Assembly (NCBI GenBank): GCA_021785175.1
Contig: JAJYGH010000065.1
Location: 1 to 64,000, forward strand
Direction: 5' to 3'
DNA: 64,000 bases
DNA from: Chloroflexota bacterium
GTDB taxonomy: Bacteria > Chloroflexota > Limnocylindria > Limnocylindrales > CSP1-4
The first letter of the stretch is position 1, and the number at the start of each line of letters is the position of its first letter. The position numbers and the translations under genes are program-made. Below, piece by piece: positions 13,452 to 45,207 of this stretch. Under the pieces are notes generated by a model that was given only the letters and a program-made list of their open reading frames with translations, did not search any database and was not told the origin of the DNA.

Positions 13452-14461
13452 GTCGGCCGGTTCGCTCCCCCTGCGGTCCGAGACGAACGGGGATGAGCCG
13501 ATGCGTACGCGGACCGGAGCCGACCGGGCGACACGTGCGTGTACAGCTGGGTGGTGTTGAGGCTGCTGTGGCCCAACAGTTCCTGCACGACGCGGAGGTC
13601 CGCGCCACCGTCGAGCAGATGGCTCGCGAACGAGTGCCGCAGCGTGTGCGGGCTGACGCCGGCAGGCAGCCCGGCAAGGCGCACGAGCCGGTCGATCCGG
13701 AGCCGGAGGCCGCGCACGCCGAGCGGGCCTCCGCTCGCATTCAGGAACACCTTCCCGTCGTCGAACCCTGCGGCCCGCCGTCGCAGCACCGGCCGCACGT
13801 CGCGCAGGTACTCCTCGAGCGCCTCCACGGCCGGGCGCCCGAGCAGGCCCGCGCGCTCCTTCCGGCCCTTGCCGAGCACACGGACCTCCGCGTGCCGCAG
13901 GTCCAGGTCGGAGATCCGGAGGCCCGCAAGCTCGCTGACCCGGAGCCCGGCGGCGTAGGCCGTCTCGACGATGGCCCGATCGCGTACGGCAAGGCGGGCA
14001 ACCTCCTCCCCACGCCGGCGCGTGGGTGCCTCGCCGGCCGGCTCCCCACCGCGCACGTCGGTCGCGTCGATGAGCGCCTCCACCTGGCCGATCTCGAGGA
14101 CCTTCGGCAGCCGCGCCCCCTGTCGGGGCGTCGAAACCGCCGCCCACGGGTCACCCTCGACCCAGCCCACCCGACGTCCGTGCCTGTAGAACGACCGGAC
14201 GGCCCCCAGCCGGCTGCCAATCGATCGCCGCGCCAGCCGCTCGGAGAGGTGCGCGAGGTAGCCGCGGAGCACGCTGCGTGCCGGTCGCTCCCACGACGCG
14301 TCGTCGGAGTGGCCGGGCCGGCAGAGCGCAGCGGCGTCCGGCGACGCCAGCCAGCCAAGATAGTCGGTCAGCGCGATCCGGTATGCGCGGAGCGTGTGCG
14401 GCGAGGCGTCGCGCGCGGCGAGCGCCTCGAGGAACGAGGCGAGGGCGTCGTCCCCCGTCAC
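13448..14461 (-). CDS. xerC: Tyrosine recombinase, XerC/D type
   Basis: Chromosome-dimer-resolution type recombinase (337 residues). An N-terminal SAM-like core-binding domain (LEALAARDASPHTLRAYR) is followed by the catalytic domain. It has Arg in AAGLRVSELAG, Lys in LGKGRKER, His-x-x-Arg in SPHTLRHSFASH, His in LLGHSSLNTTQ and the nucleophile in LYTH. The start is the GTG at 14461, overlapping the topA stop as GTGA. Its core position between topA and murJ and its Xer-like length favour a housekeeping role rather than a mobile-element integrase. The XerC/XerD distinction cannot be made here. Confidence 0.9.
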   Translation of the reverse strand: MTGDDALASFLEALAARDASPHTLRAYRIALTDYLGWLASPDAAALCRPGHSDDASWERPARSVLRGYLAHLSERLARRSIGSRLGAVRSFYRHGRRVGWVEGDPWAAVSTPRQGARLPKVLEIGQVEALIDATDVRGGEPAGEAPTRRRGEEVARLAVRDRAIVETAYAAGLRVSELAGLRISDLDLRHAEVRVLGKGRKERAGLLGRPAVEALEEYLRDVRPVLRRRAAGFDDGKVFLNASGGPLGVRGLRLRIDRLVRLAGLPAGVSPHTLRHSFASHLLDGGADLRVVQELLGHSSLNTTQLYTHVSPGRLRSAYASAHPRSSRTAGGANRPT

Positions 14462-16914
14462 GCTGCGCCGGCGTCGGCGGTCCGCCGGCTCGTCGTCCGC
14501 CTGCCCGACGTCGCGGCCCGTGGCTGCGGACGGTGTCCATTCGAGGAGGCGCCTCCGCGGCCCCGCGGTCGCTTCGCCGTCAGCGCGTCCGGATTCGGTG
14601 GACCGCCGGGCAGCGAGCGACCTGCGAGGTCGGTCTCCGGCAGCGCGATCTCCGCCCCGCAGACCAGGCAGACTCCGGCCGCATCGCGCCGCCCGACCGG
14701 CCCGCCATCCGCGTCGTGCCGGGCCCCGATCGGCTCGAAGTCGGTGGTGAAGTCGCACGATGGGTACCGCGAGCAGCCGAAGAAGACCTTGCCGGTCCGG
14801 CGCGCGCGCCGCGCCACGAGGTGCCCCTTGCCGCACGTCGGGCAGGGCACCTCGAACGGGAGCTGCGGCGGCGCTGCGGGGCCGTCCTTCTTGATGAACC
14901 TGCAATCGGGGTACCGCGAGCAGCCGACGAACGGCCCGAAACGGCCCCGCTTCTCGATCAGCGTGCCCTGCCCGCACTCAGGGCAGGTCTCCCCGACCCC
15001 GGGCAGGTGCCGCTCCGCGGGCTGCGAGCCGTCCCCCGTCGCATCGCCTCCGTCGCCCGCCTCCCCCGGAAGCGGCCGCGTCTCCTGGTGTTCCGGGTAC
15101 AGCGAGCACGCCAGAAACTTCCCGTACCGCCCGAGCCGGATCACCATCGGGTGGCCGAGCGAGCACACCTCGTCGGAGGGTTCCGTCGTGAAGTCGCGCC
15201 GGTGCAACTCGCGGCGCTTCTCGTCGACGAGGTCGCGGAGCGGGCCGTAGAACTCGCGCAGCAGCGGCACCCACTCGCGCTCGCCCCGGGCGATCTCGTC
15301 GAGGCGCTCCTCCATCCGGGCGGTGAACTCCGGGTCGACGAACTCCCCGAAGTGCTCGACGAGCAGGTCCGTGACGATCTCGCCGACGGGCTCCGGACGG
15401 AGCCGGCGGTCGACGATCCTGACGTAGCCGCGGTCGATGATGGTCGAGATCGTCGCCGCGTAGGTCGACGGACGACCGATCCCGCGCTCCTCCAGCGCCT
15501 TGATCAACGTGGCCTCGGTGTACCGCGGCGGAGGCTCCGTGAAGTGCTGCGTCGGCGTGACGTCGACCACCGCGGTCTCGTCGCCGACCGCCATCGCCGG
15601 CAGGCGCCCCTCGCGCTCCTCGGCGTCGTCGTCGCGCCCCTCGGTGTAGATCCGGGAGAACCCGTCGAAGGTCGTCCGGCTCGCGCTCGCCCGCAGCGCG
15701 TACCGCCCGGCCGTCAGGTCGACCGTCGCCGTCTCGAGCTCCTTCGACGCCATCTGCGACGCGATCGCGCGCTGCCACACGAGCCGATAGAGCCGCAGCT
15801 CGTCGCTGCTGAGATGTCCCTTGAGCGACTCCGGATCGCGCCGGAACGACGTGGGCCTGATCGACTCGTGCGCCTCCTGCGCGCCGCGGACCTTCGTGCG
15901 GTACACCCGTCCGCGCGGCACGACGTACGGGTCGCCGTACCGGTCGCGGATCACCTCGCGCGCCTCCGCCATCGCGATCCCGGCGATCGCGGTCGAGTCC
16001 GTCCGCATGTACGTGATGAGCCCGACCTGTCCCTCGCCGGTATCGACGCCTTCGTACAGCCGCTGCGCCACCGACATGGTCCGCTTCGGCGAGAAGCCCA
16101 GCTTGCGGCTCGCCTCCTGCTGGAGCGTGCTCGTCGTGAAGGGCGGCGCCGGGTTCATCTTCCGGCTCGAAACGCCGACCTTCTCGACGCGCGGTCGGAG
16201 CGCCCGCAGGGCGTCCGCGTGCCGGCGCGCGGTCGCCTCGTCGCCGACGTCGACCTTGGCACCATCGATCCGGATGATCTCGGCCGCGAATCGATCCCCC
16301 CCGGCGGTCTCGAGCAGCGCCGCGAGGGTCCAGTACTCCTTCGCCGTGAACGCGCGGATCTCGCGCTCGCGCTCGACGACCATGCGCACCGCGACCGACT
16401 GCACGCGGCCCGCCGAGAGCCCGCCGCGGACCTTCCGCGACAGGAGCGGGCTCAGCGTGTAGCCGACGAGCCGGTCGACGATGCGCCGTGCCTGCTGCGC
16501 GTCGACCAGGTGCTCGTCGATTCCGCGCGGGTGCGCGAAGGCGTCGCGGATCGCGCCCTCGGTGATCTCGCTGAACGTCACGCGGCGCTGCTTCTCGCGC
16601 GGCACGTCCGCCGCCTCCGCGACGTGCCAGGCGATCGCCTCTCCTTCGCGATCGAGGTCGGTGGCAAGGTACACCTGCTCGGCGGTCTTCGCCGCCCGCC
16701 GGATCGCCTCGACCTGCTTCCGGCGATTGTCGGACACGACGTACTCCGGCGCGAAGTCATGATCGACGTCCACGCCGAACTTGCCCCTGCCGGGGTTCTC
16801 CGGGAGATCCCGGACGTGGCCGTACGAGGCCAGCACGCGGTACCCGTCGCCGAGATACCGCTCGATCGTCTTCGCCTTTGCCGGCGACTCGACGACCACG
16901 AGGTTCTTCGTCAT
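14458..16914 (-). CDS. topA: DNA topoisomerase I
   Basis: Type IA topoisomerase relaxing negative supercoils. An 818-residue protein opens with the TOPRIM domain (VVVESPAKAKTIERYLGDGY), has DREGEAIAWHVAE near residue 110 and the active-site tyrosine in GLITYMRTDST near 300. Four C-terminal Cys-rich modules follow: CSLGHPM..C, CPECGQG..CSRYPDC, CPTCGKG..CSRYPSC and a final CLVCGAE pair. The ATG at 16914 is 8 nt after a TG-extended -10 (TGATACACT), again without Shine-Dalgarno. A GTG 18 nt upstream is possible. It is the first gene of the four-gene overlapping unit. Confidence 0.96.
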   Translation of the reverse strand: MTKNLVVVESPAKAKTIERYLGDGYRVLASYGHVRDLPENPGRGKFGVDVDHDFAPEYVVSDNRRKQVEAIRRAAKTAEQVYLATDLDREGEAIAWHVAEAADVPREKQRRVTFSEITEGAIRDAFAHPRGIDEHLVDAQQARRIVDRLVGYTLSPLLSRKVRGGLSAGRVQSVAVRMVVEREREIRAFTAKEYWTLAALLETAGGDRFAAEIIRIDGAKVDVGDEATARRHADALRALRPRVEKVGVSSRKMNPAPPFTTSTLQQEASRKLGFSPKRTMSVAQRLYEGVDTGEGQVGLITYMRTDSTAIAGIAMAEAREVIRDRYGDPYVVPRGRVYRTKVRGAQEAHESIRPTSFRRDPESLKGHLSSDELRLYRLVWQRAIASQMASKELETATVDLTAGRYALRASASRTTFDGFSRIYTEGRDDDAEEREGRLPAMAVGDETAVVDVTPTQHFTEPPPRYTEATLIKALEERGIGRPSTYAATISTIIDRGYVRIVDRRLRPEPVGEIVTDLLVEHFGEFVDPEFTARMEERLDEIARGEREWVPLLREFYGPLRDLVDEKRRELHRRDFTTEPSDEVCSLGHPMVIRLGRYGKFLACSLYPEHQETRPLPGEAGDGGDATGDGSQPAERHLPGVGETCPECGQGTLIEKRGRFGPFVGCSRYPDCRFIKKDGPAAPPQLPFEVPCPTCGKGHLVARRARRTGKVFFGCSRYPSCDFTTDFEPIGARHDADGGPVGRRDAAGVCLVCGAEIALPETDLAGRSLPGGPPNPDALTAKRPRGRGGASSNGHRPQPRAATSGRRTTSRRTADAGAA

Positions 16915-37160: not shown

Positions 37161-37235
37161 TGGTAGCGGAGGGCGGATTCGAACCACCGACCAAGGGCTT
37201 ATGAGTCCCCTGCTCTACCACTGAGCTACTCCGCC
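37161..37235 (-). tRNA. tRNA-Met (CAT)
   Basis: A full 75-nt cloverleaf including encoded CCA: acceptor GGCGGAG/CTCCGCT with a G1-U72 wobble, D arm GCTC..GAGC, anticodon loop CTCATAA, and T arm GGTGG TTCGAAT CCGCC. CAT means elongator Met; a lysidine-modified Ile isoacceptor is less likely given the Met-like acceptor. Pair 31-39 is A-G, so the anticodon stem has a mismatch. The 5' half overlaps the left end of an integrated element, and the sequence upstream belongs to that element. Confidence 0.93.
37196..37235 (+). repeat. Left attachment-site repeat
   Basis: The 40-bp copy inside the intact tRNA-Met gene. It differs from the right copy only at 37201, the anticodon's third base. Recombination most likely occurred within the 34 identical bases at 37202-37235. 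Confidence 0.85.
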
Positions 37236-37248
37236 GCCGATTCACGCT

Positions 37249-37307
37249 CAGTTACAGCCCATAACTGGCGCAGAGCTTGACCGCAGTCGATTTCGAGCCT
37301 ATAACTG
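37249..37307. repeat. Repeats at the integrase control region
   Basis: CAGTTA (37249) and TAACTG (37262) form an inverted repeat with a 7-nt spacer. An 11-bp direct repeat, GCC(C/T)ATAACTG, occurs at 37257 and 37297, exactly 40 bp apart. Candidates are recombinase arm-type sites or operators, because the second copy overlaps the integrase -10. Confidence 0.6.
37277..37305 (+). promoter_or_regulatory. Integrase promoter
   Basis: TTGACC, 17 bp, TATAAC, 35 bp ahead of the integrase ATG. The -10 lies inside the second GCCTATAACTG repeat, so binding there could autoregulate the gene. Confidence 0.6.
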
Positions 37308-37340
37308 TCGCCGTGCTTCCACGCACGGCGGCCGATACTC

Positions 37341-38300
37341 ATGGCTTCTAGCGCCCGCGGTCGGGCTCGCGACGATTCTATAGCCGAACCCGACGTCCTC
37401 GCCAACCTCGCCTCGTTCACGCGCCACCTGCGCGCCGAGAACAAGGCGCCCTCGACGATCGTCACCTACGCCAAGGCGGTCGAGCAGTTCGAGACGTTCC
37501 TGGCCGAACCGCGCCGCCACCGCCCGCGCCGGGTGGCCGACGTCCGGCGCGAGGACGTCGAGGCGTTCCTCGTCGAACGTTCCGACGCCGGGATGCGTCC
37601 CGCGACGCTCTCGCAGCGCTTCCGCTCCCTCCAGCAGTTCTTCAAGTGGCTGGCCGCCGAGGGCGAGATTGCGGCGAGCCCGATGGCGACGATGCGTCCG
37701 CCTCTCGTGCCCGAGACTCCCCCGCCCGTCCTGCGCGAGGACGACCTGCGAAAGCTGCTCGACGCGTGCGCCGGGACCGGCTTCGAGGACCGCCGCGACA
37801 ACGCGATGATCCGGCTCTTCCTCGACACCGGGATGCGCCGCGGCGAGCTCGCCGGGCTGAAAATGGAGGACGTCGACCTCGACCAGGAGACGGCCGTCGT
37901 CCTCGGCAAGGGCCGCCGGCCGCGCGCGTGCCCTTTCGGCCACAAGACCGGCCAGGCGATCGATCGGTACCTGCGCGCGCGATCGAAGCGGCCCGACGCG
38001 TCGGAGCCCTGGCTGTGGCTCGGCAAGCGCGGCCGGCTGACCGAGACCGGGGTGGAACAGGCGATCAAGCGCCGCGGCCGCGAGGCCGGCCTGCCCGACA
38101 TCCACCCGCACCAGTTCCGGCACACCTACGCCCATCAGTGGCTCGCCGCTGGTGGCACGGAGGACGATCTCATGCGCCTCGCCGGCTGGAAGAGCCGCCA
38201 GATGCTCGCCCGCTACGGCGCGTCGGCGGCCGACGAGCGGGCCCGCGAGGCATACAAGCGCCTCAGCCCGGGCGACCGGCTGCAGGTTCGGGCGCGCTGA
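37341..38300 (+). CDS. Tyrosine recombinase (integrase)
   Basis: A 319-residue site-specific recombinase. A SAM-like core-binding domain (residues 20-110, [19 protein letters not shown]) is followed by the catalytic domain with Arg in [12 protein letters not shown], Lys in [10 protein letters not shown]-x-x-R in [13 protein letters not shown], Trp in place of the second His (GWKSRQML) and nucleophile in ARYGAS. This W-type variant is common in mobile-element integrases and differs from the xerC gene at 13448. Adjacency to the tRNA and the flanking repeats indicate that it catalyses this island's integration. No separate excisionase of the usual kind sits beside it. Confidence 0.92.
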
Positions 38301-38315
38301 TTCGGAGTCCGGGCG

Positions 38316-38335
38316 CTGTCACACTACCTGTCACA
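38316..38335 (+). repeat. Short direct repeat after integrase
   Basis: CTGTCACA occurs at 38316-38323 and 38328-38335, a 12-bp period. It lies in the 200-bp gap before the AbiEi-like gene, where no gene is seen. It could be an operator for the downstream promoter. Confidence 0.4.
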
Positions 38336-38446
38336 GCCTCGCGATAGCTTTGACCCGCGCGATCTACGCTCGTGGACGACCCCGCTGGCGTCGAACGCTT
38401 CACCTGACCATCGAGACAGGGAAGCGTGGGCGTTCAGTGTCGCGCA

Positions 38447-38475
38447 TTGACGCAGAACGTACACTCCGGTACGGT
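38447..38475 (+). promoter_or_regulatory. Promoter of AbiEi-like gene
   Basis: TTGACG, 17 bp, TACGGT, with 26 nt to the ATG at 38502. No strong Shine-Dalgarno is visible in the leader. Confidence 0.5.
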
Positions 38476-38501
38476 AACGTCACACAGACGACACCAATTC
38501 G

Positions 38502-39248
38502 ATGAGCTGCCCAGACCTGACTGACTGGTACCTCCGCAATCGCGTCGCCGTCGTCGACGTTCGCTCGTCGACATTCCAGCGTGCGCGCAGCCAGGTCATG
38601 CCCACCGGGTACGACGCCAACGTCTGCCTGCGGCGCCTCGTCAAGGCGGGCCGCATCCGACGGATCCGCGCTGGCCTGTACGTGGTCCGCGATCCTGCCC
38701 GCGAGACACCGGCGATCGCCATCGCCAGCGGCATCTTCGTCGAAGCCCCCCACTACGTCACGACGGATGCTGCCCTTGCTCACCATGGTCTGATCGACCA
38801 GCCGATCACGACGATCACGGTGGTCCTGCCGCGCATTCGCCGCTCGTTCGCCATCGACCCGACCACGACGCTGCGGCCGGTGACGCTCGACGAGAACCGC
38901 GTCCGCGAGGCCGACGCGTATCAAACAACGGTCGATGGCTTCGGCATCCGCGTCGCGTCGCGCGAGCAGGCCGTCGTCGACGCGCTCGCCGAGCCAAAGT
39001 GGATGGTCTACGGCGATCTCCTCCCTGAGGTCCTCGCCGCCTTCTCTGACGACGAGATCAAGCGGACGGCCACCGGGACCCTGGCTCGGACGACCGCGGC
39101 GGCTCAGCGGCTCGGCTACCTCCTCGAGGAGGCGCAACGGCCACTGCCGTCGGGACTCGCCAACCTTCGGCCAGTCCGGGCGGTCCGACTCCGCCCGCAG
39201 AACCGCTCCCGAGGTCGCTACTCGACGCGCTGGCGCATGTATGGCTGA
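38502..39248 (+). CDS. AbiEi-like antitoxin without partner
   Basis: A 248-residue protein of the AbiEi antitoxin group (type IV toxin-antitoxin and abortive-infection systems). An N-terminal winged helix (NVCLRRLVKAGRIRRIRAGL) leads to the C-terminal AbiEi domain with YVTTDAALAHHGLI, SREQAVVDALAEPK and a basic tail. In known systems AbiEi represses its operon and counters the nucleotidyltransferase toxin AbiEii. No AbiEii-like gene follows; the next gene is an HTH protein 94 bp on. It may be a solitary transcriptional regulator of the island or an anti-toxin guarding against external AbiE systems. Confidence 0.75.
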   Translation: MSCPDLTDWYLRNRVAVVDVRSSTFQRARSQVMPTGYDANVCLRRLVKAGRIRRIRAGLYVVRDPARETPAIAIASGIFVEAPHYVTTDAALAHHGLIDQPITTITVVLPRIRRSFAIDPTTTLRPVTLDENRVREADAYQTTVDGFGIRVASREQAVVDALAEPKWMVYGDLLPEVLAAFSDDEIKRTATGTLARTTAAAQRLGYLLEEAQRPLPSGLANLRPVRAVRLRPQNRSRGRYSTRWRMYG

Positions 39249-39303
39249 CACGCCAGGAAGTTGGAACCTGGGCTCGGGTGAACCCGACGTGCCATCTGAT
39301 GGC

Positions 39304-39332
39304 TTGACACTTTTGACACTTCGCGATAGGGT
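39304..39332 (+). promoter_or_regulatory. Promoter of HTH/PIN operon
   Basis: TTGACA, 17 bp, TAGGGT, followed by 9 nt to the ATG at 39342, so the transcript should be leaderless. The -35 is part of a perfect tandem TTGACACTT pair (39304-39312, 39313-39321), a likely binding site for the encoded HTH protein. Confidence 0.7.
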
Positions 39333-39341
39333 GCCCGAACC

Positions 39342-39716
39342 ATGACGCTCGCGAACCGCACCCGAACCGTTGACGAGGAACTCCGGACTGCGCTTGACGA
39401 TGTCCGAGCCATCGATCCCGCGCTCGGGAATCGCGTGGCCACGCTCATCGAGGAGCGCGAAAGGTCGCGCGACACGGAGTATCTGACGAGCACCGAGGCT
39501 GCGGAGGCGCTTGGGGTAAGCCGCAACACCGTGAAGAAGTGGGCCCGCCTCGGCTACCTGCACGACGCGTATCGCACCGACGGGGGCCATGTTCGGATCC
39601 CGCGTCACGAGGTTGACCGTGTGGCCAGGCTGGAGCGTCTCATGGCCGAGACGCCTGAGCCGATAGGACCAGCGCCCGAGGCTGACGAGACCGCGGCCTT
39701 GCCTTGGCGGTCGTAG
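39342..39716 (+). CDS. Excisionase-type HTH protein, probable antitoxin
   Basis: A 124-residue DNA-binding protein. A helical N-terminus of about 45 residues precedes a MerR/BldC/excisionase-like winged HTH (LTSTEAAEALGVSRNTVKKWARLGYL, broken here as EAAEALGVSRNTVKKW) with the wing TDGGHVRIPRHEVDR. The acidic C-terminal tail could occupy the toxin. The stop overlaps the PIN gene by 13 nt. Pairing with a PIN nuclease makes an antitoxin/autorepressor the best reading. It could instead be a directionality factor for the integrase, and both functions are possible. Confidence 0.75.
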   Translation: MTLANRTRTVDEELRTALDDVRAIDPALGNRVATLIEERERSRDTEYLTSTEAAEALGVSRNTVKKWARLGYLHDAYRTDGGHVRIPRHEVDRVARLERLMAETPEPIGPAPEADETAALPWRS

Positions 39717-40207
39717 TTCGACCGCGCGCGGTACTCGACACCAGCGCACTCTGGGGGCGTGGCCCTCGGAGTGAGTTGATCCGCGCTCTCGATGCCGGGC
39801 GCTTCGAAGGGCTCTGGTCGGAATGGATCCTCGGCGAGCTCTACTACGGCCTCGCTTGGGACTGGGCCGCGAACAAGGGTACGGATGACACGCAGCGGCG
39901 GGCGATGTCGGCGTCGGCGCACGCAATGCTGCGGCTGCTGATCCCTCGGCTGGAAATCGTCACTCTCCGCCGCGGTGCGATCGATCCGTGGCCGTCTCTC
40001 CGCGATCAGGACGATGAGCCGGTGTGGGCGACGGCTGTCCTGGGTCGTGCCACGCATGTCGTGTCGATGAACACGCACGACTTCCCTCCGAATGCGGCTG
40101 CTCAGGGTGAACCGCCCCGACACGTGTGGGAAGGGATCGAGTACCTCGAACCGCAGGCGTTCCTGGCGATGATCTGGGCGGATGATCCGACCGACGACGA
40201 GGAGTAG
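39704..40207 (+). CDS. PIN-domain toxin (VapC-like)
   Basis: A 167-residue PIN nuclease, probably cleaving RNA. The acidic residues of the fold are visible: VLDTSALWG near residue 10, SEWILGELYYGL near 40, and DQDDEPVWATAVLG near 118; the last, acidic position in STNxxDF form is MNTHDF. The TTG at 39704 is the only reasonable start and overlaps the antitoxin, so translation is probably coupled. An acidic tail ends the protein. Activity is inferred from family. Confidence 0.8.
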   Translation: MAVVVRPRAVLDTSALWGRGPRSELIRALDAGRFEGLWSEWILGELYYGLAWDWAANKGTDDTQRRAMSASAHAMLRLLIPRLEIVTLRRGAIDPWPSLRDQDDEPVWATAVLGRATHVVSMNTHDFPPNAAAQGEPPRHVWEGIEYLEPQAFLAMIWADDPTDDEE

Positions 40208-40244
40208 GGCGGCAACCGGTCCGTCACTGCGTGGCCGCGGTCAG

Positions 40245-40284
40245 CTGTTCCAGAAAGCCCGCGGTTCCGCACGCTGTGGAACAG
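40245..40284. repeat. Inverted repeat between convergent genes
   Basis: CTGTTCCA (40245-40252) and TGGAACAG (40277-40284), an 8-bp perfect arm pair with a 24-nt loop, between the PIN stop and the zinc-ribbon gene's 3' end. It may serve as a weak bidirectional terminator. Confidence 0.45.
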
Positions 40285-40314
40285 CGGTCACCGCCGGAAC
40301 AGCGGTCACCGCCG
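40279..40314. repeat. 18-bp tandem duplication
   Basis: gaacagcggtcaccgccg is repeated perfectly at 40279-40296 and 40297-40314. It runs a few bases into the 3' end of the zinc-ribbon gene. Confidence 0.8.
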
Positions 40315-40571
40315 GATCGCGTGCCCGTCGCAAAGCGTGCGCTGCCAGTAGCGGTCTGTCCGGAGCCGGCCCGGGTTGCCGCAGACCTCGCATATCGTGA
40401 GGGACTCCGAGGCAAGCTCATCGAGCAGGTCCTCGTACGCCCGTTCGTTCGGCTCGAAGTAGATGCGAAGCGAGCCGTCAGGCCGTCGGCCGCGGCTTGT
40501 GCCCACGGGCCCAGGCTCGGGTCGCGACGTTCGATCGCCACAACCGCAGCAGCGACCTTCCTTGCCGTCAT
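40306..40571 (-). pseudogene. Frameshifted small zinc-ribbon-like protein
   Basis: The frame from GTG 40506 encodes 66 residues ending in a recognisable block, SLRIYFEPNERAYEDLL then ICEVCGNPGRLRT and TLCDGHAIRR, with Cys/His spacing of a zinc ribbon. A plausible N-terminus, MTARKVAAAVVAIERRDPSLG, starts at ATG 40571 but lies in another frame. A one-base shift near 40500 would join them. Either the gene is broken, or only the short GTG-started form is made. The function of the family is unknown to me. Confidence 0.5.
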
Positions 40572-40637
40572 CTCACCAATGTTCGCCCAGCTGGCCACCG
40601 CCGCGCCTGGTCCGGACGCGAGCGACACACCCACGCC

Positions 40638-40665
40638 TTGACGTCTCTCGCGGTCCGGTTAGACT
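40638..40665 (+). promoter_or_regulatory. Promoter of Xre/RES operon
   Basis: TTGACG, 16 bp, TAGACT, and 7 nt to the ATG at 40673. There is no room for a Shine-Dalgarno, so the message is probably leaderless. Confidence 0.65.
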
Positions 40666-40672
40666 TTGGTAG

Positions 40673-41299
40673 ATGGCTGCCGTCCGAATATCTACCGTAG
40701 AGCCTCCTCTGGACCGTCCTGCGCTTGTCGATCCGGCGATTCGGCTGTTGCGCCGAGCGCTGGCTCTGGGGCTGCTGGCCGATCAAGAGCGGGTAGATCG
40801 ACTGGATCTTGAGCTTGTTCGGCGGATCGCGCGCGAGGCTTCCACGGCCGGGATCGGACGCGACGCGGCTATCGCACTCCTCCAGGGCGATCCTGGGGCA
40901 AACCGTCTCGCAGGGTTGATCGAGCGACTCGACGACTCCCTCGCCCAGTCTGCGCTCCCCGACCGCGAGGTACCGGAGCTGCTTCGTGTCTTCGGTCGCG
41001 ATGAGCTCGCCGCGCTGGCTGGTACGTCGTCGGTGAGCCTCGGGCGCTACCTGTCTGGCGCCCGCGCCTGGCCGGATGCGCTGGCGGCCAGGATCCATTG
41101 GCTTGCCCTGGTGCTCTCCGACCTTGAGGGGGCGTACAACGCATTCGGTGTACGGCGATGGTTCGACCGTCAACGAGCGCAGCTCGATGGCCGTTCGCCA
41201 CGGCAGGTCCTCGGATCGGAGTGGGATCCCGCCTCCCAAGAGGTCGAGAGAGTTCGGCAGCTCGCCGCTGCCTTGGCTGGAGTCGGCGCTGCGACGTGA
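40673..41299 (+). CDS. Xre/MbcA/ParS-type antitoxin
   Basis: A 208-residue antitoxin. The centre has a helix-turn-helix (ELAALAGTSSVSLGRYLSG near residue 113), and the C-terminus carries the toxin-binding DUF2384-type region, AYNAFGVRRWFDRQRAQLDG then SPRQVLG. The N-terminal 90 residues form an additional helical region, longer than in minimal Xre antitoxins. The stop overlaps the RES toxin start as GTGA. In studied pairs the complex represses its own promoter. Confidence 0.85.
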   Translation: MAAVRISTVEPPLDRPALVDPAIRLLRRALALGLLADQERVDRLDLELVRRIAREASTAGIGRDAAIALLQGDPGANRLAGLIERLDDSLAQSALPDREVPELLRVFGRDELAALAGTSSVSLGRYLSGARAWPDALAARIHWLALVLSDLEGAYNAFGVRRWFDRQRAQLDGRSPRQVLGSEWDPASQEVERVRQLAAALAGVGAAT

Positions 41300-41823
41300 A
41301 AGTCTTTCGGCACGCCGATCCCCGCTTCCCCTTCCTGTGGGAGTCGGCTGCGCAAGATCCCGCTCGTTGGCACGACGTGGGGGAAGGACCCGTGCATTAC
41401 TTCGCCGAGACGCCGGATGGCGCGTGGGCCGAGTTCCTGAGACACGAAGGCATCTCGGACCCCCTGGACCTCCAGGGTATCGCTCGATCCATCTGGTCGA
41501 TCGAGGTGTCCCGTCCTCCTCGGGCACGTGCCCGTCTCGATGACGCCACGCTCACGGGCGGTCTCTCGACGTATGACGAGTGCCGCCGCGAGGCTCGCCG
41601 GATCCGGGGACGAGGCGCCAAGGGTCTGGTCGCTCCATCGGCAGCCCTTGACCCGGCCTCGCCGAGCGGGTTTCGCACGCAGCGTGGACTTCGCGCCGCC
41701 CCGGCGCGCGCGGAACAGGTCTTCGTCCTGTTCGGCCCGCGCCCGGACCTCGTCGGGTGGGCCGCCTGCCACGAGGGGCGACCTCGTGACGACCTCCTAC
41801 CCCGCGTCCGCCACTTGCGGTAG
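41296..41823 (+). CDS. RES-domain toxin
   Basis: A 175-residue RES-family toxin. Characterised relatives are NAD+ phosphorylases or ADP-ribosyltransferases that deplete NAD or modify a host enzyme. The signature residues are Arg in KVFRHADPRFPF, the YFAETPDGAWAEFLRH segment with its Glu near residue 35-50, and Ser in KGLVAPSAALD. Starting at GTG 41296 gives GTGA coupling to the antitoxin. The longer frame upstream overlaps the antitoxin and is rejected. NAD-directed chemistry is inferred. Confidence 0.87.
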   Translation: MKVFRHADPRFPFLWESAAQDPARWHDVGEGPVHYFAETPDGAWAEFLRHEGISDPLDLQGIARSIWSIEVSRPPRARARLDDATLTGGLSTYDECRREARRIRGRGAKGLVAPSAALDPASPSGFRTQRGLRAAPARAEQVFVLFGPRPDLVGWAACHEGRPRDDLLPRVRHLR

Positions 41824-42005
41824 GCAGGCACCGTCCGCACGGGGACGTGCTGCGCCTGGCGGTCCGGAGGATCGCCCGAATGTCGCCGAATCAGGTATGC
41901 GCTCGATCGGAGTTATGCGCTCTTGCCCCCGGCGCCGATAGAGCCCATGAGTCACCCGATTCGTGCGTGACTCCTACTCGGGAAACCGCAGCGGATTGAT
42001 GGGGA

Positions 42006-42045
42006 GGCTTGTGAGTCCCCTGCTCTACCACTGAGCTACTCCGCC
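42006..42045 (+). repeat. Right attachment-site repeat, truncated tRNA-Met
   Basis: Matches tRNA-Met positions 1 to about 41 on the minus strand, with CAC where the intact gene has the CAT anticodon. It has no 3' half. It marks the island's right boundary. Confidence 0.85.
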
Positions 42046-42055
42046 CCGGGTACCA

Positions 42056-42084
42056 AGCTTACCGAGCGTGCGTGAACCGGGCAA
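42056..42084 (-). promoter_or_regulatory. Probable original tRNA-Met promoter
   Basis: Minus strand: TTGCCC, 17 bp, TAAGCT, ending 10 nt before the first base of the truncated tRNA copy. This is the spacing expected for a tRNA promoter. It suggests that the right flank is the native upstream region, now 4.8 kb from the functional gene. Confidence 0.6.
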
Positions 42085-42154
42085 CGGTCACGCTGCCAGC
42101 ACATCGCGATCGAACGGCACGGACGTCTGGCCTCTCGTCGTCCTGGTGCAGCAC

Positions 42155-43678
42155 TCAGGATGGCCGGGCTCCCTTGACCACGCGGAGCTGCGGCGGTCGT
42201 TCGATCAGGCGTGCCGCGTCGAAGAGGGCCAGGAACGCGGGCCTGCGAGCGTTGGCAGCCCGGACTTCCGCGGCATATGCGGCGAAGTCCGCCTCCAGGC
42301 CGAGCCGGGCCATCAGCGCGCGGATCCGACGAAGGAGAGCCACGACCTCAGCGTAGACGCGCTTGTCCGTGACACCGAACAGCGCCGCAACCTCCTGCCG
42401 GTAGACCGCGAGCGCGTCGTCGGGCCGGGCTTCCTCGCTCCGATGCGCCAGAGCGAGCCACGTTCCGCGACGGCAACCGAGCCTGCGCGCCTCGGTCCAC
42501 GCGTCGTCGACGTGGCCCTCCCACAGCAGGATCTCGACGAGCCGCGAGCCATCGGCCGGCTCCTCCCAGCGGTACCGCGCGGACCGTGCCCGAGCCCGGT
42601 CCGTCGCCATCGCCTGGTCGATCGATCGCCGGAGCTCCTCGAGCGCTCGCGGTCGCCAGGACGCCCAGGCCCCGGTGCGGTCCGCGTACCCCTTCAGCAG
42701 CCTGTACCGCTCAGGAGCGGGCCCCTCCGAGTACTCCGCCCAGATGACCGCCATCGCCTCCTGCCCGCGCGATCGGCGCAGGTACTCGTCCGCCAGGAAC
42801 TCGCGAAGACGCACGTCGGTGCGACTCGGGAAGGCACGCACGCCGCGTTCGGCCCAGTCGAGCGCCTCATCGCCACGACCGGCATCGCGGCAGAGCTGCG
42901 CGAGCCTGAGGAAGTCGTACGCAGACGACAGGTCGCGGCTCAGCACCGCGATCTCCATGTCCACATCCCCGAACGCCTGCGCCAGCGACTCCATCATGGA
43001 GGTCACGCTGAACCGGTCATCGTCCTCGTCGGTGACGTCCTCGTCCTCGGGAGCGCGAGCCGGGATCCGTGCCCACTCCGCTTCCGCCAGGCGGCGATAG
43101 GTCGCCAGGCCGGCCTCCCCGAGCACGTCCGCGTATCGCTGGGCCGCGCCTCGAAAGACGTCCCAATCGCCGTCCAGCTCCCAGCGGAACAGCCGCTCGG
43201 CAAGCGCGACCGGGTCAGGACGGGCCGCGCGGCAGGCGTCGAGATGAAGCGTCTGGAACCGATCGAGCAGGTCACCGATCAGCCCGTCCGAGTCGTCCGC
43301 CTCCTCGAGAGCCTGCTCGAGACGGTGGAGCGTGCGTTCCGCGAGGTCGATGGCCATTCCCGCGCGGCCGTCGCGGATCAGCCCTTCGAGCGTGTCCGCC
43401 ACGTCGTCAGCCCCGCCGGCGAACGCGGCCACATCCCGATAGTGGAGGATCCCTCGGATCTGTGTCGCCCGGTCGACCGCCTGCTCGAGGGCCCGTATCC
43501 CTTCCCCGGCCGAAGCTGCCGCGGCCGCACGCAGCCGAACGCGAGCCGCCAGGTCCTCGTCTCGCTCCATCTCGCTGGTGATGAGCTCGATGAGCGCGTC
43601 GCGAGCGAGACCCTCAAGGAACGGTTCGTGGATCCGGGTCTCGGGCGTCGGCCGTTCGTCAGCCCCGCGGGTCGTCAT
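42155..43678 (-). CDS. DUF6880-like helical-repeat protein
   Basis: A 507-residue soluble, all-helical protein with TPR-like stretches. It resembles DUF6880 proteins, which often accompany SWIM zinc-finger proteins; none is adjacent here. Features are LIELITSEMERD near residue 30, a DEDVTDEDDD acidic loop near 225, and ARARYRWEEPADGS-like ARSARYRWEEPADGSRLVEI near 385. No catalytic residues stand out. TACGAT lies 6 nt before the ATG, suggesting a leaderless message. Function unknown. Confidence 0.7.
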   Translation of the reverse strand: MTTRGADERPTPETRIHEPFLEGLARDALIELITSEMERDEDLAARVRLRAAAAASAGEGIRALEQAVDRATQIRGILHYRDVAAFAGGADDVADTLEGLIRDGRAGMAIDLAERTLHRLEQALEEADDSDGLIGDLLDRFQTLHLDACRAARPDPVALAERLFRWELDGDWDVFRGAAQRYADVLGEAGLATYRRLAEAEWARIPARAPEDEDVTDEDDDRFSVTSMMESLAQAFGDVDMEIAVLSRDLSSAYDFLRLAQLCRDAGRGDEALDWAERGVRAFPSRTDVRLREFLADEYLRRSRGQEAMAVIWAEYSEGPAPERYRLLKGYADRTGAWASWRPRALEELRRSIDQAMATDRARARSARYRWEEPADGSRLVEILLWEGHVDDAWTEARRLGCRRGTWLALAHRSEEARPDDALAVYRQEVAALFGVTDKRVYAEVVALLRRIRALMARLGLEADFAAYAAEVRAANARRPAFLALFDAARLIERPPQLRVVKGARPS

Positions 43679-43684
43679 CGCGCC

Positions 43685-43690
43685 ATCGTA
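43685..43690 (-). promoter_or_regulatory. -10-like hexamer before DUF6880 gene
   Basis: Minus-strand TACGAT, identical to the aspS hexamer, 6 nt from the ATG at 43678. Confidence 0.4.
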
Positions 43691-43769
43691 CCGGCCCCGA
43701 GGCTCGCCAAAGCCCGAGGCTCGCCAAGGACGGCCGCATGCCAGGCGCGGGGCCCATCCCGACCATGGC

Positions 43770-43979
43770 TCACGCGTGCGCCCCGCTTCCTGTCCCCGGG
43801 CTGAGCCAACCGGCCATCAACTCATCGACCTTCGCGCGCACGGCCTCTCGAGCCTCGTGACGATCCCGGCCTCGCATCAGCAATTCGTCGTAGGGCGTGT
43901 GGCGATGACGCAGGTGGGCGCGCACGGCCAGATCGATGGCCTCCTCGGAGAGCGCCGTCGCGGCGGCGGTCCTGCCCAC
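43770..43979 (-). CDS. DUF2293-like small protein
   Basis: A 69-residue protein from GTG 43979. The core AVRAHLRHRHTPYDELLMRG then EAREAVRAKVDELMAGW matches the DUF2293 pattern, a short helical domain of unknown function. It is slightly short for the family and may be truncated at the N-terminus. No Shine-Dalgarno precedes the GTG. It lies between the DUF6880 gene and the M19 gene, all on the minus strand. Confidence 0.6.
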   Translation of the reverse strand: MGRTAAATALSEEAIDLAVRAHLRHRHTPYDELLMRGRDRHEAREAVRAKVDELMAGWLSPGTGSGAHA

Positions 43980-44025
43980 CCGTCCGGAAGACCGAGCACA
44001 CGCACGCAGGGCCGGCTGCGGCGCG

Positions 44026-45207
44026 TCAACAGGTTCCGCCGGCCGTCAGGTCCTGCAGCGCCGGCCGGTGCCCCTCCGCCGATCGACCGCTGTCCGCGCT
44101 GGCGCCGTCGAGCGCGGGGCGGAGGATGCGCAGCGCGTTCCCCCCGAGCACGGCGACGATGTCGGGCTCCGGCACGCCCCTGGCGAGGAGTCCGTCGGTG
44201 ATCAGCGGGAGGCCGGACGCGTCGACGACGGACCGGAGCGCGCCATCCATGTCCGAGCCGATCGCGACGTGCGCGGGCCCGAGCTCGTCGATCGCGAACC
44301 GGATGGTGTCGACGAGATCGCGGACGGTCGACCCGCCGAGCAGCGTGACGACGGTGACGACGCCGACGATGCCTCCCGCCCCGGCCACGAGCCTGGCGTC
44401 GGCCATTCGGACGTTGCGCGTCGCGGCGCTGTACCGACGCCAGCGGCTGGCGCGGGCGGCCCGCTCCAGGAAACCGGTGTGGCTGATGACGGGCGGACGC
44501 GACGCGCACGCGACCGTGTCGCGGATGGTCCCGGAGGATCCGTGAGCGAGGTCGACGACGATCGACGCCCGTTCGAGCTCCGCGACGGCGATCCGACCGA
44601 GCGGTGTGAGCCCGCCGGCCCGCCTCCCCGACCCTGACCCGGCGAGGGGGCTGTCCATGACGTGGGCCAGCCCGAACATCCGGATCCCGAGCGCCCGCAG
44701 CCGCGCGACCGCGGCGGGCAGGAGGGCCTCGTCCGTCCCGAGCACCTGCCCACCCTGGACCCCGATGAACGCGCCGACGGGACCGTTCGGCGCAAGGACG
44801 CGGTCGAGGTCGGCCCCGGAACGCACGACGACGAAGGCGTTCGGAGAGGCGGCGGCCCAGGCATCGATCCGGCGGACGAGGAAGGACACGATCGCGAGGT
44901 CGGAACGCAACGCCCGTGCGGGCACCCCCAGGCCGAGGAACTGCGCCGCCGACAGCGTGCCCCGTGGGTCGGGGAACCGTGTCGCGAGCGAGAGCCCGAC
45001 CAGGTTCGTGCCGACGGAGCGGAGACGGGGAAGGTCCACGTGCCCCGTCGAGGCCGGCTCGAGCATCGTCCGGCGGAAGAGCGGCGTGCCCACCAGAAGG
45101 TCGACGACCGGCACGCGAGCGTGGAGCGCGATCGCCTCGGGCGAGGGGCGGTGGGGGCGCGGGGCGCTCACGCCGAGCAGCGCACGATCGACGACTTGGG
45201 TGATCAC
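44026..45207 (-). CDS. M19 dipeptidase homologue with altered metal site
   Basis: A 393-residue renal-dipeptidase-like TIM barrel. Two metal histidines are kept (DLAHGSSG, H222; ISHTGF, H243), as are RNVRMAD and GSDMDG. Two classical ligands are changed: the HxD pair reads V34-V-D36, and the bridging Glu of GVEGG is Gln in GVQGG (Q151). Known M19 enzymes need both for a two-zinc centre, so this may be a pseudoenzyme, a one-metal enzyme or act on another substrate. It has no signal peptide. The start is GTG 45207. Confidence 0.8.
   Translation of the reverse strand: MITQVVDRALLGVSAPRPHRPSPEAIALHARVPVVDLLVGTPLFRRTMLEPASTGHVDLPRLRSVGTNLVGLSLATRFPDPRGTLSAAQFLGLGVPARALRSDLAIVSFLVRRIDAWAAASPNAFVVVRSGADLDRVLAPNGPVGAFIGVQGGQVLGTDEALLPAAVARLRALGIRMFGLAHVMDSPLAGSGSGRRAGGLTPLGRIAVAELERASIVVDLAHGSSGTIRDTVACASRPPVISHTGFLERAARASRWRRYSAATRNVRMADARLVAGAGGIVGVVTVVTLLGGSTVRDLVDTIRFAIDELGPAHVAIGSDMDGALRSVVDASGLPLITDGLLARGVPEPDIVAVLGGNALRILRPALDGASADSGRSAEGHRPALQDLTAGGTC

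Follow-up and report, generated by a model that had tools for sequence, protein, structure and literature searches.

A probable small integrative element at the 5' half of a tRNA(CAU) gene in a Limnocylindrales bacterium, stacked on an older unit that lacks an integrase

In an uncultured member of the Chloroflexota, what occupies the 5' side of a transfer RNA (tRNA) gene, and which promoter would then serve that gene? The question is raised by a 64,000-nucleotide stretch, here called the window (Limnocylindrales, CSP1-4; assembly GCA_021785175.1, contig JAJYGH010000065.1, positions 1 to 64,000). A sequence-only reading had described a 40-bp direct repeat with one mismatch that bounds 4.8 kb, with one copy in an intact tRNA-Met gene and the other a tRNA fragment, and had proposed a minimal integrative or satellite element. 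This DNA, here named element A (about 37236-42045), is in our view likely to be a small integrative element that sits at the 5' half of the tRNA(CAU) gene and is stacked on an older element, B, that has no integrase.

The repeat is as it had been described. Its copies, at 37196-37235 and 42006-42045, were found by repeat comparison and blastn (which matched the second copy at E about 1e-15 in the 64 kb), and they are identical at 39 of 40 positions; the mismatch, A37201/G42011, is the third letter of the anticodon. The left copy lies within an intact gene (37161-37235, minus strand) that ARAGORN calls tRNA-Met (elongator Met or Ile2). Because base 1 of this tRNA is at 37235, the repeat corresponds to bases 1-40, the 5' half, and ends just past the anticodon loop. 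The right copy is thus a displaced 5' half, the intact gene is one rebuilt by integration, and element A lies on the 5' (promoter) side of the tRNA. A plain tRNA 3'-end island was ruled out, since the repeat is the 5' half.

Related genomes (G numbers; individual loci have L numbers) include the empty site that the sequence-only reading had suggested looking for. In G004, from the same genus as the source, alignment shows ftsH, the tRNA, ~76 bp and then the homolog of window position 44109, and the tRNA 5' side is also without an insert in G003, G005 and G006. The extra DNA in the window therefore runs from 37236 to about 44100. Thus, the 4.8-kb repeat-bounded unit holds as a unit but is not the whole insertion, which consists of two tandem elements. 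These unoccupied sites rule out a conserved host gene cluster. The locus has the features by which Islander defines an island: an intact tRNA gene accompanied by a displaced fragment of one end that has the same orientation, a tyrosine integrase aboard and an unoccupied site in relatives. Separately, in G006 (L075 1492-6255) ftsH and the tRNA 3' end are separated by about 4.8 kb that is not in the window and is possibly an ordinary 3'-side insertion.

Just inside the left end lies the W-type tyrosine recombinase gene that had been noticed there, int (37341-38300, plus strand; 319 amino acids; PF00589, 9.4e-31). It starts 106 bp from the tRNA 5' end and is whole in the integrated state, and the R, K, HxxR, W and Y positions of its product are recognisable by eye (GMRRGEL, GKGRR, HQFRH, GWKS and RYG). 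The ratio of nonsynonymous to synonymous substitution rates (dN/dS) among relatives is about 0.07-0.16, which indicates strong purifying selection. The integrase relatives found are 41-95% identical, and those at 92-95% sit at the same tRNA with other cargo, which the sequence-only reading had suggested looking for. The integrase scored 49.3 bits with the integron-type model TIGR02249, far under the cut-off of 265; it is not of that type, and an integron was ruled out. A second tyrosine recombinase in the window (13490-14464, minus strand) is 31% identical to that of element A and has no adjoining tRNA.

Where the relatives have a nearby tRNA, int begins about 50-190 bp from it and is directed away from it. 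The tRNA 5' end faces int in several Limnocylindrales-type Chloroflexota clades, with Met, Lys, Gly, Pro, Val, Arg and Leu tRNAs represented. In most actinobacterial relatives, and in some others, it is the 3' end of the tRNA that faces int; the actinobacterial L100 (Thr) is an exception. On the integrase tree the 5'-facing members group together: orientation required 4 changes, compared with 9.3 in shuffles, and 0 of 500 shuffles were as low. The 5'-facing orientation may have a single origin. At Pro, Val, Leu and Gly tRNAs, the displaced 5' halves that delimit elements are 40-42 bp long, and in L107 (His) the copy is the 3' half. The 5'-half and 3'-half copies have the anticodon stem-loop in common, which is most simply read as a single place of crossover used in either orientation. 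In L085/L069 (tRNA-Lys) and L088 (tRNA-Gly), the tRNA lies between a 5'-facing integrase and a displaced 3'-half copy, which suggests that a single tRNA may host elements at both ends.

Both ends of element A are conserved beyond the window. The left end (LE_A, 37236-37340) has two arm-like AGTTATGYGCTCT motifs, inverted, at 37254 and 37294, and is kept in G001, G010, G011, G013, G105, G124 and G126. The right end (RE, 41886-42005) has three, at 41893 and 41911 on the plus strand and at 41940 on the minus strand; that is, two direct copies and one inverted, with the left ends in the opposite sense. About 115 bp of this right end recurs together with the tRNA half, with different cargo, in G002, G013, G015, G017, G025, G077, G078, G103, G117 and G129. 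Allowing up to 3 mismatches, AGTTATGYGCTCT has 6 sites on both strands of the 64 kb, 5 of them at the ends of element A, and the copies are probably arm sites of the integrase.

A candidate free form was found among viral contigs. IMGVR_UViG_3300042818_000027 (L217) from IMG/VR is 9,828 bp long with 127 bp identical at both ends, which indicates a circle of ~9.7 kb. It encodes a 71% identical integrase and, adjoining it, carries the tRNA 5' half (40/40) with no tRNA 3' half, as predicted for the attachment site (attP) of an element that integrates at the 5' half. The same contig has an HK97-type Phage_capsid match (PF05065, 5.8e-17) and a tape-measure match; it is very small for a tailed phage and is perhaps a satellite. 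No plasmid-borne form was found among plasmid records at E <= 1e-30.

An element on the 5' side of a tRNA must replace its promoter. Unoccupied tRNAs have a native TAGAAT 15-38 bp upstream (10 genomes, with G018 counted once), whereas at the left ends of A elements a TAGAAT lies 132-165 bp upstream of the tRNA, inside int or at its start. This TAGAAT is present in all 12 Met-type loci listed, of which the pair L082/L171 appears to be one contig, as well as in the Lys locus L085, and is kept in integrases down to 59% amino acid identity. In the window, the candidate replacement promoter is antisense in codons 12-22 of int (37375-37405, minus strand), with a -35 of TTGGCG (37405-37400), then 17 nt, then TATAGAAT, which holds the -10 (TATAGA/TAGAAT, 37382-37375). 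Copies in which int has been deleted retain this stretch: L170 to codon 34, L172 to codon 37, L108 to codon 51 and L173 to codon 71, while L174 has codons 6-31 fused to 273-316. The strength of this pattern is limited by shared ancestry and by the small number of cases, five. A displaced copy in G017 keeps int codons 12-33 and reads ATTCCA, not ATTCTA, at the -10. Most likely, the rebuilt tRNA is transcribed from element A by a promoter antisense within the first ~30 codons of int.

Element B adjoins the right repeat, extends from 42046 to about 44010 and has no integrase. Its left end (LE_B, 42046-42100, minus strand) resembles a tRNA promoter, with TTGCCC (42084-42079), 17 nt and TAAGCT (42061-42056). 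B left ends read TTGCCG-N17-TAAGCT and end about 11 bp before the tRNA, and LE_B-like sequence lies directly upstream of an intact tRNA in G015, G017, G024, G025, G027, G031 and G127. Element B contains a DUF6880 gene (42155-43678, minus strand; PF21810, 1.2e-12), which is absent from unoccupied sites, and at its end a truncated small open reading frame (ORF; 43770-43979, minus strand) that is intact (139 amino acids) in G002. An integrase-less B island in G017 holds DUF6880 and AbiEi/AbiEii genes between the tRNA and the displaced half. Taken with the type of the left end, this identifies the DUF6880 gene of the window as cargo of an older B element. B units with both ends are present in G015, G017 and G025, and similar 0.6-3.4-kb units, some tandem, occur in other genera. 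Contig 108 of G078 (L158, 8365-11872) contains three right ends at spacings of 1.5 and 1.9 kb, with a sigma factor gene beside a 201-amino-acid gene and a cation-efflux gene as cargo and a Na/H exchanger gene beyond.

The reading of element A as a small integrative element stacked on B is carried by the repeat, the orientation, the empty site, other cargo with a near-identical integrase, a circular relative with the predicted attP, and tandem ends, all of them features of sequence. From these we infer integrase activity, excision, promoter use, mobilisation of B in trans and selection by cargo. A circular form would recombine, through its attP and by means of the integrase, with the tRNA(CAU) gene at the anticodon stem-loop, and the rebuilt tRNA would be transcribed from the element promoter antisense in int. 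Repeated integration at one tRNA would stack elements, with A having entered between the tRNA and the older B. B-type units would bring their own tRNA promoter with them and have ends of the same kind, and an A-type integrase could mobilise them in trans.

Several observations weigh against this reading. TAGAAT within int is limited to the Met/Lys clade and is absent at the Gly, Pro, Val, Leu and Arg elements, for which a TAGAAT promoter was ruled out because the motif was not found. In the window, element B no longer has its right end, with about 180 bp of G002 missing at 44012, and G025, G127 and G129 hold B units but now have no close integrase. An excised circle of the window's own element A was not seen. 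Finally, G000 and G002 are 99% identical over 38543-44012 (except near 40336-40581), compared with 91.5% in int and 87.5% in the flank. As this block excludes int, some cargo exchange may be homologous recombination, and cargo and integrase can have separate histories. In G002 the abiEi start was lost by a small deletion-inversion; in L063 (about 776-790, compared with window 38404-38543), ~139 bp are replaced by a 14-bp reverse complement of a stretch of the window.

The alternative that survives best, although we still think it unlikely, concerns element B. B and its kin could be insertions passed on vertically, each of them a separate dead A element that lost its int in place. The in-place deletions of int in L170, L172 and L174 are what this would produce, and genomes that bear B often have no close integrase. 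However, the left ends of B are a separate conserved type whose promoter design is unlike that of A. Moreover, several B units are stacked in G078, and A and B are stacked in both orders, in the window and in G017. Element A itself could be a decayed, immobile remnant, an old fixed insertion whose repeats persist because tRNA halves are conserved. The missing right end of B and the several relatives that are clearly broken, with int deleted, fit such decay; the integrase in the window, however, is intact, with low dN/dS among relatives, and close relatives differ in cargo, which makes a remnant improbable. Least probable is that cargo turns over by homologous recombination between conserved ends and flanks with the integrase incidental: the breakpoints of the G000/G002 block, just after int and at a dipeptidase gene, are not at attachment sites, but in many genomes the boundaries coincide exactly with the tRNA half and the ends are conserved, and the integrase tracks its tRNA across seven tRNA types.

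We therefore return to the reading of A as an integrative element and to what it carries. The AbiEi-like antitoxin gene (38502-39248, plus strand; PF09407, 1.2e-6; PADLOC AbiEi, 3.2e-23) is an orphan with no AbiEii partner here; its relative in L082 is followed by a gene for the AbiEii toxin. Next come a gene for an excisionase-like helix-turn-helix (HTH) protein (39342-39716, plus strand; HTH_17, 1.7e-11; TIGR01764, 4.3e-11) and an overlapping gene for a PIN-domain protein (39704-40207, plus strand; PIN_3, 3.5e-9; NF046100, 1.7e-14, below cut-off), likely antitoxin and toxin, respectively. A short CxxC...C/H ORF (40306-40506, minus strand) had no Pfam match and is probably a gene remnant, and at this place G002 has ~860 bp, compared with ~245 bp in the window. 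The last pair is an Xre-like protein (40673-41299, plus strand), a candidate antitoxin from its position and a weak PF09722 match (E 0.16), and a RES-domain protein (41296-41823, plus strand; PF08808, 1e-8), its likely toxin. Thus, of the cargo named by the sequence-only reading, AbiEi-like, HTH/PIN and RES are backed by Pfam, whereas Xre is weak and the zinc-ribbon ORF is without a match. As it had also stated, no replication or transfer genes were seen in the element. A Pfam scan of 37236-44012 found no relaxase or conjugation genes, so it is not an integrative conjugative or mobilizable element. The earlier proposal of an integrative element is upheld by the empty site, the other cargo and dN/dS; that of a satellite is not, as no helper was identified.

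Related elements carry different genes. The cargo of G001, whose integrase is 95% identical, is a Gp49/HTH_3 pair, and L082 combines AbiEi/AbiEii with a Ppl defence protein (6.8e-35). Other relatives bring transporters, methyltransferases or a sigma factor, and larger ones have Replic_Relax or AAA_25. A PHD-like antitoxin (154 amino acids) with a 135/136-amino-acid partner, for which no Pfam match was found, recurs at tRNA(CAU) in four genera (G011, G015, G024 and G025; L065 6437-7305, L162 7734-8602, L168 309-1177 and L170 310-1178). In a comparison bearing on transfer, the PHD-like/136-amino-acid cassette is 81-86% identical in nucleotides and ftsH 80-90%, ranges that overlap. Cargo turnover thus appears to be quick and the cargo is often toxin-antitoxin or defence genes; it is possible that the element is kept by addiction or defence.

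Element A is genuine and belongs to a broad kind already known; its mode of integration is uncommon, and its stacked companions lack an integrase. Among 3,919 Islander islands, 3,760 have a 3' fragment and 159 a 5' fragment (PMC4383910). The latter are like element A in their tyrosine integrase, intact tRNA with a displaced 5' fragment and anticodon-centred attP class, but here the 5' mode is the rule for whole integrase clades, and there are units of <2 kb and without an integrase, which the Islander pipeline excludes (PMC4383910). Archaeal pTN3-like integrases use the tRNA 5' half, the tRNA then being expressed from the integrase promoter, and this is seldom seen in bacteria (PMC8371274). 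They share with element A an attachment site (attB) in the tRNA 5' half and a rebuilt tRNA that relies on an element promoter, as is predicted here; however, those suicidal integrases are archaeal and split on integration, whereas this one is bacterial and whole, with the promoter apparently within int (PMC8371274). In the same phylum, the ssrA islands of Dehalococcoides consist of tandem units, some without an integration module and suggested to be cis-mobilizable; accretion at one RNA gene is common to both systems, but those islands are larger, use a serine recombinase module and sit at the 3' end of ssrA (PMC3146451). Mobile and chromosomal integrons also stack small cassettes, often with toxin-antitoxin genes; the sites here are tRNA halves with arm-like motifs, not attC, and the integrase is far below the model cut-off. 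Going by their description in PMC10872708, tycheposons likewise combine a tRNA, a tyrosine recombinase and variable cargo but span 4-200 kb. A Methylopumilus additive-island repeat, ACCAGCTGAGCTAATCCCCC, is given in PMC10872708 as the last 20 bp of tRNA-Lys. In reverse complement it reads like a tRNA 5' end, and 5'-half insertion may therefore apply to those islands as well. A single literature search for Limnocylindria islands listed no paper that bears that name.

Integration at the 5' half is rare in bacteria, and an element that uses it has to provide an essential tRNA with its promoter. A wider proposal, which we hold only tentatively and regard as doubtful, is that a bacterial integrase family has reversed its orientation at the anticodon loop, its elements thereby gaining control of essential tRNA transcription, with a pool of promoter-bearing, integrase-less cassettes stacked in the manner of an integron. 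The locus is a site of gene exchange in uncultured Chloroflexota that is missed by tools needing an integrase or at least 2 kb. This one family offers many 5'-half examples, a contrast in orientation with 3'-facing relatives, candidate promoters and a free circle that bears an attP. Together, these make the evolution of the orientation switch directly testable, and the same holds for the question of whether a decaying integrase is partly conserved by a promoter within its gene.

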